A DNA stretch of 64,000 nucleotides from Balneicella halophila (GTDB lineage Bacteria; Bacteroidota; Bacteroidia; Bacteroidales; Balneicellaceae), in assembly GCF_003096835.1 (NCBI RefSeq), contig NZ_QENZ01000004.1, positions 310,001-374,000 of the forward strand, read 5' to 3'. Shown here one piece after another: positions 28,426-32,055 of this stretch (within the stretch, counting starts at the first letter, position 1; every line of letters starts with the position of its first letter). Position numbers and translations under genes: made by a program. A model generated the notes under the pieces. That model saw nothing but the letters and a program-made list of their open reading frames with translations. It had not been told where the DNA came from and did not search any database.

Positions 28426-29139
28426 ATGACAGCACATAATGAAGCTAAAAAAGGCGAAATTGCAAAAACAATATTGCTACCCGGTGATCCCTTAAGAGCA
28501 AAATATATAGCAGAGAATTTTCTTAAAGATGTTAAATGCTATAATCAGGTTCGTAATATGTTTGGATATACTGGGACTTATAAAGGTAAAGAAGTATCAG
28601 TTCAAGGAACAGGAATGGGGATTCCATCAATCTCTATATATATTGAAGAATTGATGCAAGAATACGATGTAGAAAATCTTATACGTATTGGAACTTGTGG
28701 TTGTTTTCAACCCGATATTCATGTAAAAGAAGTAATCCTAGCAATGACATCATCTACTGATTCGGCTATCAATAGAAACCGATTTGATGGAAAAGATTAT
28801 GCGCCTTGTGCTGATTTTGATATGCTTTTAGATGCATATATTGCAGCAAAAGAAAAAGGACTAAAGACAAATGTTGGTGGTATTCTGACCTCAGATGTGT
28901 TTTATTATGATGAAGATCGTGCAAATTCATGGAAAAAATGGGCAGATTTTGGAGTAATGGCCGTAGAGATGGAAACAACAGCTCTTTATACATTAGCTGC
29001 AAAGCATCATAAGCGTGCACTCTCTATCCTTACAGTAAGTGACCACTTGGTTACAGGAGAGGAGACAACTTCAGAAGAGCGCCAAACTTCTCTGAATGAT
29101 ATGATTACTATAGGTTTAGAAACTGCAATTAAACAATAA
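28426..29139 (+). CDS. deoD: Purine-nucleoside phosphorylase, DeoD type
   Basis: 237 residues, hexameric DeoD family. The N-terminal block is [30 protein letters not shown]; phosphate and nucleoside sites follow in RIGTCGCF and [12 protein letters not shown], with catalytic Asp in VSDHL. It splits purine ribo- and deoxyribonucleosides to base and sugar-1-phosphate. The start at 28426 fits family length; 28390 would add 12 odd residues and overlap the promoter. Its product base could feed hypoxanthine phosphoribosyltransferase at 46.6 kb. Confidence 0.94.
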
Positions 29140-29155
29140 TAATTTTGTTAAGTTT

Positions 29156-29186
29156 TTTGTGTTTTTCAAAAAAGTAACTATCTTTG
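29156..29186 (+). promoter_or_regulatory. Promoter of rpmE2
   Basis: TTTG (29156-29159) and TATCTTTG (29179-29186), spaced 19 bases, are exact matches to the Bacteroidetes primary-sigma promoter. The ATG is at 29225, giving a leader of about 35 bases. This is the cleanest such promoter in the window. Confidence 0.8.
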
Positions 29187-29224
29187 CCGTCCGAAAGTAG
29201 AATGAGAAAAATATATTCAGAGAA

Positions 29225-29488
29225 ATGAAAAAAGATATTCATCCAACAGATTTTAGAATTGTAGCATTCAAAGATATGTCTACAGACAATATTGTTTTGA
29301 CAAAATCTACAGTAAAAACAAGTGAGACAGTTGAAGTAGAAGGAGTGGAGTACCCATTATATAAAATGGAGATTTCAAGTGCTTCTCATCCATTCTATAC
29401 AGGAAAAATGAAGTTCGTAGATACCGCTGGTCGTGTTGATAAGTTTATGAACAAGTATAAAAATCACATGTCGAATCGCAAAAAGTAA
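29225..29488 (+). CDS. rpmE2: 50S ribosomal protein L31, type B
   Basis: 87 residues, [19 protein letters not shown] then ASHPFYTGK and the late [10 protein letters not shown]. There is no cysteine at all, so this is the type B form that needs no zinc. In many bacteria type B replaces the zinc form under zinc limitation; in Bacteroidota it is usually the only copy. Own promoter and terminator, so monocistronic. Confidence 0.96.
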
Positions 29489-29510
29489 TTTGCAATTTTC
29501 ATAAAACTAC

Positions 29511-29546
29511 AAAGCTCGAGCGTATAAGCTCGGGCTTTTGTTTTTT
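29511..29546 (+). terminator. Terminator of rpmE2
   Basis: Arms AAAGCTCGAGC and GCTCGGGCTTT (one G-U pair) overlap or nearly abut a small loop, followed by T-rich sequence ending in six T. 22 bases after the rpmE2 stop. Confidence 0.85.
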
Positions 29547-29560
29547 GGCATAACTGTTGC
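29546..29560 (+). promoter_or_regulatory. Sigma-54-like (-24/-12) promoter candidate for lon
   Basis: TGGCATAACTGTTGC fits the sigma-54 consensus TGGCAYR-N4-TTGC, with GG and GC at the required spacing of ten bases; only the final W position (C here) deviates. Transcription would start near 29571, about 50 bases before the lon ATG. No good -7 TAnnTTTG element was found between the rpmE2 terminator and lon. Confidence 0.5.
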
Positions 29561-29594
29561 CTAATAATAGGTAAGAGATAAAACAACTAAAATA

Positions 29595-29609
29595 CTGCCA
29601 ATATGGCAG
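29595..29609 (+). promoter_or_regulatory. Perfect palindrome upstream of lon, operator candidate
   Basis: CTGCCAATATGGCAG has perfect six-base arms with a three-base centre. It sits between the candidate start of transcription and the ATG at 29623, where a repressor would block lon. It is not the CIRCE element (TTAGCACTC-N9-GAGTGCTAA). Confidence 0.45.
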
Positions 29610-29622
29610 AGGAGATTTATAT

Positions 29623-32055
29623 ATGAAACAAAAGAAAAAAATAGCTTTAGAGGCTTTTGCTATGAGTGATTCGTCGAATAATGATTTTGTTCCGATACTT
29701 ATGGAAGGTAACGAGGAGAGTATAGGAGATATAGAAGTTGGAAACCACTTACCAATATTACCACTACGCAATTCTATATTATTCCCTGGTGTTATCCTGC
29801 CTATAAGCGTAGGACGTAAGTCATCATTGAAACTTATTGAACATATCAATAAATCAGGAGGGATGTTAGGTACGGTTACCCAAAAGGATGAGACCATTGA
29901 AAGTCCAGAATTTAAAGACTTGCATACTATTGGTACAGTTGCAGAGATTGTAAAGATTCTGGAGATGCCCAATGATATAACTACTGTTATTTTGCAGGGA
30001 CGCAGGCGTTTTAAACTCAACGCAATAGTAGGAGATAGTCCATATAGAACAGGAGATATTTCGTTATTAGAAGATTCAAAATTAAATACGGAAGATGTAA
30101 GAATGACTGCCTTAATGGCAGCAATCAGAGAGACGGCGGTGAAGATTATTAAATTAACACCAAATATGCCTTCTGAAGCGACATTCGCTATTAAAAATAT
30201 TGAGTATCCTACATTTCTAATCAATTTTATCTGTACTCACTCAAATATCGATATTGAAGATAAACAGGAACTTTTAGACTTAGATGATGTCAATAAGAGA
30301 GCAGAACTCCTTTTACAAAAGTTGGTGAAAGAGTTGCAAATGCTCGAAATTAAAAATGATATTCAGAATAAGGCTCATAATGATATGAGTCGGAAACAAC
30401 GTGAATACTTCTTGCATCAGCAAATGCAAACCATTCAAGATGAATTAGGAGGTACCCCAGCTGATGAGGATGTAAAAGAATTAGAAGCATTGGCTAAAAA
30501 GAAACGTTGGAAAAAGTCAGTGTCTAAAATCTTTAAAAAAGAGTTGAAGAAGCTAAAGAGACTAAATCCTTCGGCTCCTGATTATTCTGTTCAATTGACT
30601 TATTTACAAGAGTTTGTTGGATTGCCATGGGATACCTATACAAAAGATAATTTTGACTTAGACCACGCAGAAGAAGTGCTAAATCGAGATCATTATGGAT
30701 TGGATAATATTAAAAAAAGAATCATTGAGCATTTAGCAGTATTGAAATTGAAAGGAGATTTAAAAGCACCTATTTTATGCCTTCATGGACCTCCCGGAGT
30801 TGGAAAGACTTCACTGGGTAAATCTGTAGCAGAGGCACTAGGGCGGAAGTATATTCGAATGTCTTTAGGAGGGGTGCATGATGAGTCTGAAATACGCGGT
30901 CATAGAAGAACTTATATTGGAGCAATGCCTGGACGTATTATTCGTGGCATTAAGAAGGCGGAAGCTTCCAATCCAGTATTTATTTTAGATGAAATTGACA
31001 AAGTAGGTTCTGATCACAGAGGAGATCCTTCATCTGCGTTATTAGAAGTTCTAGATCCTGAGCAAAATAATGCATTTCATGATAATTATTTAGATGTAGA
31101 CTATGATCTTTCTAAAGTGCTTTTTATTGCTACTGCCAATCAGCTAAACACCATCCCACGTCCATTGCTTGACCGCATGGAGTTGATTGACATTAACGGC
31201 TACATAATTGAAGAGAAAATGCAGATTGCTAAACGTCACTTGATTCCTAAACAGTTGAAAGAACATGGTATTGATGAAAAAGCTGTAGAGTTAACAGACG
31301 GAGCTATAAAACGTATTGCTGAGGAATACACAAGAGAGTCCGGAGTTCGTGCTTTAGATAAGAAAATTGCTGAGGTGATGCGTAAATTAGCAGTTGCTAT
31401 AGCAAAAGGAGAAGGAGAAAATTATACTATCGAAGCTGAGCAGTTGGAAGATTATCTTGGTGTTCCAAAATTTGCTAAGGAGATATACGAGGGGAATGAA
31501 TATGCTGGAGTTGTTACTGGCTTAGCATGGACTGCAATGGGAGGAACTATTCTTTACGTAGAAACCTCTGTAAGTAAAGGAAAAGGTGAACTTACGTTAA
31601 CAGGTAATCTTGGGGATGTAATGAAGGAATCAGCAACATTAGCATTGCAATACCTTCGCTCTAATTCTGACTTGCTTAATATGAAAGCCGAAGATTTTGA
31701 TAAGATTAAAGTTCACTTACACGTTCCAGAAGGAGCTGTACCAAAAGATGGTCCTTCAGCTGGTATTACAATAGCCACAGCGATAGCTTCTGGACTTACT
31801 AAGAGAAAAGTTCGCAATAAGTTAGCGATGACGGGTGAAATTACCTTGCGTGGTAAAGTTCTGCCAGTAGGAGGTATCAAAGAAAAGATATTGGCAGCTA
31901 AGCGTGCCGGAATCAAAGATGTAATTTTATCGTCTGATAATAAAAAAGATGTAGCGGAAATTAAGGAAATGTATTTAAAAGGGTTAAATTTCCATTATGT
32001 AGATACAGTTGCTGATGTATTGAATATTGCTTTGTTAAAAACTAAAGCAAAGTAA
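29623..32055 (+). CDS. lon: ATP-dependent protease Lon (endopeptidase La)
   Basis: 810 residues in the standard LonA layout. N-terminal substrate-binding domain about 45-240 ([18 protein letters not shown]), helical linker, AAA+ domain with Walker [10 protein letters not shown] and Walker [10 protein letters not shown], and a C-terminal protease domain with catalytic Ser712 (PKDGPSAG) and the Lys near 755 in [10 protein letters not shown]. It degrades misfolded and regulatory proteins in the cytoplasm. Either 29623 or the in-frame ATG at 29662 could be the start; 29623 is preferred for an AGGAG at 29609-29613. Preceded by a sigma-54-like site and a palindrome. Confidence 0.96.

Follow-up and report, generated by a model that had tools for sequence, protein, structure and literature searches.

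Background

Sigma-54 control of lon (COG0466) is already in print for the phylum Bacteroidota, and the lon promoter described here is of that known kind. In Flavobacterium psychrophilum, mapped transcription starts with −24/−12 motifs precede lon, groESL, dnaK, grpE-dnaJ, htpG and clpB, and the locus tags of a unit formed by an enhancer-binding protein (EBP) gene and lptE (THC0290_0733-0732) are close to those of groESL (0729-0728), according to the accessible part of the report (PMC9723704). The genes considered here resemble the sigma-54 (SM4) cluster B254 of that species, which comprises lon, groESL, dnaK, grpE-dnaJ and htpG and is likewise accompanied by the EBP-lptE unit near groESL; unlike the present locus, B254 comes from another Bacteroidota class, and the accessible part of the report names no activator or enhancer element for the cluster (PMC9723704). 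Chaperones and COG0466 are enriched among sigma-54 targets predicted in Bacteroidia and Flavobacteriia and are common to the regulon proposed below, whereas those targets come from a matrix prediction by gene group, with neither an activator nor a downstream element given in the accessible part of the source (PMC12316311). For the primary sigma factor of Bacteroidetes, TAnnTTTG is the −7 element, and the start-site map of Bacteroides thetaiotaomicron reports two motifs, neither of the −24/−12 type (PMC7366714, accessible part). By term search, rpoN is not mentioned in the main text of either of two transcriptome studies of B. thetaiotaomicron (PMC7366714, PMC12596196), which counts against the reading below.

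What appears to be new at this locus, from sequence comparison, is a helically phased element downstream of the promoter together with a proposed dedicated EBP; a search of the openly licensed literature, supplements excepted, turned up no paper that names either of them for Bacteroidota. At sigma-54 promoters, enhancers are normally upstream, an arrangement that is usual rather than obligatory, and downstream enhancers act at some of these promoters, e.g., at targets of FleQ and FlrC; our literature search for downstream enhancers of this type did not confirm them. FleQ and FlrC targets share with the arrangement proposed at lon an activator site past the transcription start. In contrast to them, lon is non-flagellar, and its element holds a helically phased position in dozens of families.

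A predicted sigma-54 promoter upstream of lon

The window (the whole 64,000-nucleotide stretch analysed here) belongs to a genome of 2.09 Mb that is the sole member of its genus and family among the compared genomes. The initial annotation had proposed a sigma-54-type promoter between rpmE2 and lon, and its description of the site was accurate: TGGCATAACTGTTGC carries GG and GC ten bases apart, fitting GG-N10-GC at −24/−12 with the TGGCA...TTGC consensus, directly follows the hairpin and T run behind rpmE2, and is separated from the lon ATG by 62 bases (about 60 had been stated). The reported lack of a primary-sigma −7 element also held, as TAnnTTTG had no match in the rpmE2-lon gap, the nearest upstream match starting at 29179, before rpmE2; a primary-sigma promoter was ruled out for the gap by this absence. 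The match before rpmE2, TATCTTTG at 29179-29186, is a primary-sigma −7-like element, contrasting with the lon gap. The start predicted from the site differs by one base from the 29571 given previously (Table 1).

Table 1. Coordinates of features in the window and of the 13-base element elsewhere in the genome.
Feature	Position	Strand	Remarks
rpmE2 (ribosomal protein L31), upstream neighbour of lon	29225..29488	+	Pfam Ribosomal_L31
Terminator-like hairpin with a T run behind it that abuts the −24 element	29511..29538	+	Located behind rpmE2
Predicted sigma-54 −24/−12 promoter element TGGCATAACTGTTGC	29546..29560	+	Conserved ahead of lon; top matrix score of the window
Predicted lon transcription start	29572	+	Placed from the site, with the C of the −12 element set as −12
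Proposed enhancer element CTGCCAATATGGCAG	29595..29609	+	Core TGNCA-N3-TGNCA at 29596-29608, +25 to +37
lon, ATP-dependent protease, 810 aa	29623..32055	+	Pfam LON_substr_bdg, AAA, Lon_C
13-mer copy at groES	C3:350880		
13-mer copy at dnaK	C3:222234		
13-mer copy at grpE	C5:216980		
Two 13-mer copies elsewhere	G000:C3:83520; G000:C3:735887		The latter overlaps a TGGCAN7TGC match

Judged from the window sequence only, TGGCATAACTGTTGC is a chance-level match: TGGCAN7TGC occurs three times in the window against 1.33 expected, and 16 of 100 shuffles reach as many. When both strands of the window were scored with a matrix built from 31 lon loci, the own site excluded, position 29546 was the top place with 23.6 bits, compared with 16.6 for the next. 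A phage search using the region gave no match.

Across the whole genome, TGGCAN7TGC has 77 matches versus 25 for the reversed pattern. An ORF of at least 120 codons on either strand overlaps 29 of the 30 matches inspected, which is a weak filter because the lon site overlaps an antisense ORF too. The narrower TTGGCAYN5TTG occurs 18 times, with the downstream element described below found within 300 bases only at lon and absent from the other 17 sites. Ten of these 17 (L139, L140, L144-L147, L153-L156) lie 42-84 bases before an ORF, and Pfam names seven of the ten products: OmpA twice, LolA, a beta-barrel protein, a lipocalin, an FGE-type protein and a sigma-70 region 2 protein. Several are outer-membrane or exported proteins and one is an ECF-type sigma factor, a composition that points to an envelope branch of the sigma-54 regulon, distinct from the one treated here.

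Conservation of the site among relatives

The comparison covered the order, presumably Bacteroidales, of which 120 families were sampled, and lon was found in 236 of its 247 genomes. Among the matches listed, 150 lon upstream regions were examined (90, then 60); one, at a contig end, was dropped, leaving 89 + 60 = 149, and since lon loci within one family are related, the counts below are not independent events. In the 260 bases ahead of the aligned lon start, the strict pattern TGGCAYN5TTGC was present in 32 of the 89 loci. The reverse strand had no match, nor did 47,499 bases lying further upstream, and dinucleotide shuffles averaged 0.07 loci (maximum 1). A −24/−12 matrix trained on these 32 loci (31 without the own site) scored at least 10 ahead of lon in 76 of 89 loci, compared with 2 on the reverse strand and 1 of 88 further upstream; in the 60 held-out loci, which are more distant, the corresponding numbers were 36 of 60, 1 and 0 of 58. 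In total, 112 of 149 lon loci from 68 families keep the site (3 of 149 on the reverse strand), many with TTGA or TTGT in the −12 element versus TTGC in the own genome. The sequence upstream of the site varies widely between relatives; the site itself stays. A chance match at lon was ruled out by this conservation, seen with the strict pattern and with the matrix, in trained and held-out loci. We regard 29546-29560 as almost certainly the −24/−12 element of a sigma-54 promoter of lon.

The 37 loci scoring below 10 were counted against this reading. They include the near-complete genome G228, which has rpoN and the LptE-linked EBP described below, yet its lon site falls under the threshold; in G114, lon, groESL and the EBP gene adjoin, yet the lon −24/−12 score is only 2.2. 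A k-mer and dyad search upstream of lon revealed no clear element, and some of the enriched words there are probably coding sequence of neighbouring genes.

A phased element downstream of the promoter

The initial annotation had the promoter right and its meaning largely so, and missed a conserved element just downstream of it. In a k-mer comparison of the 112 lon promoters, restricted downstream to a 60-base zone beginning 20 bases past the first T of TGGCA, CTGACA/TGTCAG was found in 42 (shuffles: mean 2.1, maximum 6), versus a background level of 7 in the 200 bases upstream (shuffles: mean 6.2). In the 100 bases ahead of the promoter, TGACA/TGTCA was slightly in excess (29 of 112 loci versus a shuffle mean of 17.5, maximum 28), and no conserved upstream enhancer was found at the lon sites. 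The more general form TGNCA-N3-TGNC occurred within 90 bases after the promoter at 61 of the 112 loci and upstream at 1 (shuffles: mean 0.30, maximum 2), while other spacers from 0 to 12 gave at most 3 loci each; at the other 51 promoters, no element lies within that distance. The own copy, TGCCAATATGGCA, is the sole match in the window, where 0.93 is expected; a single match in 64 kb is unsurprising, its location is.

Relative to the predicted start, the element begins at +24 to +27 in the main group of 45 loci (30 families); four loci (3 families) have it at +35/+36, eleven (8 families) at +45 to +49 and one at +14. Fifteen offsets are thus approximately one or two helical turns beyond the main group, and the 16 outlying offsets, taken together, are in phase with it (R 0.81 at 10.5 bases, kinship ignored). 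Two families, f28 and f96, each hold two of the offsets. Within the main group, the distance between promoter and element has an SD of 0.83, versus 16-110 bases between the element and the first in-frame ATG. Ten lon loci without a good site also hold the element, with a weak site at a phased distance in three (G168, G020, G134) and not in the rest. Eight named relatives of lon comprised six Bacteroidota, one Neomarinimicrobiota record and one unplaced bacterium; Phaeodactylibacter luteus has the lon site with a full element 48 bases on, at +23, and none of the other seven has the site-plus-element arrangement.

The element at groES, dnaK and grpE

The full 13-mer TGNCA-N3-TGNCA occurs six times in the 241,234 bases of the own genome that were searched, including copies at lon, groES, dnaK and grpE, so that these genes share a putative regulatory element; the latter three regions were chosen by gene, which makes this a test of named candidates rather than a genome-wide search. 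At groES, dnaK and grpE of this genome, the element sits upstream of a sigma-54-like site. By the −24/−12 matrix, the dnaK site is strong (18.5 bits), and those of groES and grpE are weak (6.3 and 3.4). In the groES regions of 12 relatives, the best upstream match begins with TTGGCAY in 11, with scores of 2.4-11.9. Together, these 12 regions and the own groES, dnaK and grpE regions contain the full element in 11 of 15 cases (shuffles: mean 0.17, maximum 2), a count that may in part be explained by a terminator-like repeat behind secG, inside which the groES element lies in several relatives. In the secG-groES gaps of seven loci (L222, L224, L229, L232, L233, L234, L239), TGTCA-N3-TGTC stands in the 5' arm of such an inverted repeat, and terminator and regulatory element may overlap there. 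A CIRCE operator was rejected for groES, dnaK and grpE of this genome, with no match to its consensus.

rpoN and candidate activators

The genome encodes an RpoN of 481 aa with all three sigma-54 domains (PF00309, PF04963, PF04552), for activator binding, core binding and DNA binding. Sigma-54 activation matches were found at nine places, four of them strong; these four EBP-type genes carry a sigma-54 interaction domain, one in truncated form. The proposal that lon stands under an EBP-activated sigma-54 promoter is supported by rpoN, the EBP genes, the conservation of the site, the published F. psychrophilum lon start and the enrichment of COG0466 among predicted sigma-54 targets, and the accompanying link to stress is drawn from the work on that species and from the element common to groES, dnaK and grpE.

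Two of the strong EBPs (L002 and L004) have a receiver domain. The former (G000:C3:1003391-1006891, 1258-2415 of the minus strand) is NtrC-like, with receiver and sigma-54 domains, and Pfam shows no HTH in it. The fourth EBP (L005, G000:C3:885922-889293, 1102-1866, minus) is missing approximately the first quarter of its AAA+ domain, reads GAFTDA, and looks truncated or fused; on its opposite strand, there is an ORF ending like an ABC-transporter ATPase. The third lacks an N-terminal domain (G000:C3:370568-371776; L221:4569-5780) and is followed by lptE, a gene for a TPR-like protein and secG, of which lptE was named by Pfam and the other two from sequence. A flotillin-like floA (L221:3475-4449, minus) is divergent to these genes.

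PspF-type EBPs have an AAA+ domain starting near the N-terminus, a C-terminal Fis-type HTH and no sensor domain. The LptE-linked EBP resembles them in all three respects and is unlike them in having a variable stretch with a conserved core between the lid and the HTH; its gene clusters with lptE, secG and often groESL rather than with psp genes. It is 61-68% identical to the proteins of nine relatives, with an invariant Walker A, a G-[AS]-FTGA motif and a Fis-type HTH, and the sensor domain is absent. When 20 relatives were drawn from the best matches to this EBP, groES and groEL lay in the same stretch as EBP-lptE-(TPR)-secG in 12. In 11 of the 12, groESL comes after secG; the twelfth, G114, has a single cluster (G114:C23:56000-72000) in the order lon, groES, groEL, EBP, lptE, TPR, secG. 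In G175, the contig ends before groESL could be reached, and in the own genome, groES is approximately 20 kb from the EBP-lptE-secG genes. The linkage to lptE and secG suggests envelope or secretion stress as the signal of this EBP.

Across the order, rpoN had a match in 233 of 247 genomes and the EBP profile (E <= 1e-20) in 245, so that neither discriminated; 11 of the 245 matched only at E > 1e-100, which leaves a close relative of the EBP in 234 of 247. The 14 genomes without an rpoN match include seven that are 95-99% complete and seven below 90%, and six genomes have a lon site and no rpoN match (G015, G118, G146 and G232, 95-96% complete; G153 and G225, 78 and 82%). Several EBPs per genome are the rule in the order. 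Among genomes with an examined lon region, eleven have a single EBP match (E <= 1e-20; all first-look candidates scored), which is always of the LptE-linked type; ten of the eleven have the lon site, seven of these also the element, and G207 has no site. In G055, the lon site scores 10.4 and the element stands at +26, yet the best EBP match reaches only 2.2e-61, with no close relative. The single-EBP genomes and the gene linkage make it more likely than not that the LptE-linked EBP is the activator of the lon promoter, a view held with less assurance than the promoter itself, in part because of G055 and of the 234, rather than 245, genomes with a close relative.

Alternative explanations

A very improbable reading is that the −24/−12 match arose by chance and that lon transcripts come from rpmE2 by read-through or from a promoter not recognised here. 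Within the window the pattern shows no excess, the −7-like TATCTTTG ahead of rpmE2 would make some read-through possible, and there are the six genomes with a lon site that show no rpoN match; yet the site is kept at the same place despite differing upstream genes, a terminator separates rpmE2 from lon, and the gap holds no TAnnTTTG. The downstream element might instead be an RNA structure in the lon leader, a hairpin near the ribosome site acting post-transcriptionally. The own copy does form a hairpin of six pairs, 14 bases ahead of the ATG, and 3 of 200 shuffles fold equally well (z −2.63). This reading is very improbable, and the hairpin was rejected as the main one, as the two halves are unable to pair in 41 of the 61 loci and the element is spaced constantly from the promoter, not from the ATG; the placement of the element upstream of the promoter at the own groES, dnaK and grpE also speaks against it. 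An Rfam RNA at the lon leader was rejected as well, with no family found in 29000-29800 at gathering thresholds.

More deserving of attention, if still unlikely, is the explanation that the promoter depends on sigma-54 and the element is a repressor operator (or a roadblock), with the lon-activating EBP bound elsewhere. At +25, the element could block elongation, EBP sites are usually upstream, and the several EBPs of most genomes in the order would offer other activators. This is opposed by the location of the element upstream of the sigma-54-like sites at groES, dnaK and grpE in this genome, where blocking would be less natural, and by offsets of approximately one or two helical turns, which fit looping or face-specific contact; moreover, apart from the slight TGACA/TGTCA excess, no other element is enriched upstream of lon promoters. 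We consider that the downstream element is probably the binding site of the activator.

Proposed mechanism and significance

With a probability of roughly 0.75, the sigma-54 promoter places lon in the Bacteroidota protein-quality-control regulon, with an EBP acting from the downstream element. RNA polymerase with sigma-54 would wait in a closed complex at the lon promoter; upon folding or envelope stress, the AAA+ EBP would assemble on TGNCA-N3-TGNCA, sitting just past the polymerase on a fixed face of the helix, and would spend ATP to open the promoter. The activator would likely be the receiver-less EBP encoded with lptE, the TPR protein and secG. Read directly in the DNA are the −24/−12 site, its conservation among relatives, the genes for RpoN and the EBPs, and the downstream element with its copies before groES, dnaK and grpE; we infer that the element would bind the LptE-linked EBP, that activation would proceed from downstream, and what the nature of the signal may be.

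A broader and more tentative proposal, which we rate as an open bet leaning slightly to the negative, is that across most of the order, and in one or more species of Saprospiraceae, the lon/groESL/dnaK/grpE stress regulon is run by sigma-54 and one widespread sensor-less EBP, encoded with lptE and secG and often beside groESL, that would recognise TGNCA-N3-TGNCA and activate lon from +25 or from whole helical turns further on (+36, +46). The searchable literature says little on how chaperones and Lon are induced in Bacteroidota, and the proposal offers a concrete wiring of one activator, one 13-base element and one promoter type. If true, chaperones and Lon in these bacteria would be controlled by a switch that depends on ATP and an enhancer and is wired to envelope assembly, in place of a heat-shock sigma factor, and a phased element conserved just past a sigma-54 promoter in dozens of families would offer a clean natural case of an EBP acting from the far side of the polymerase.
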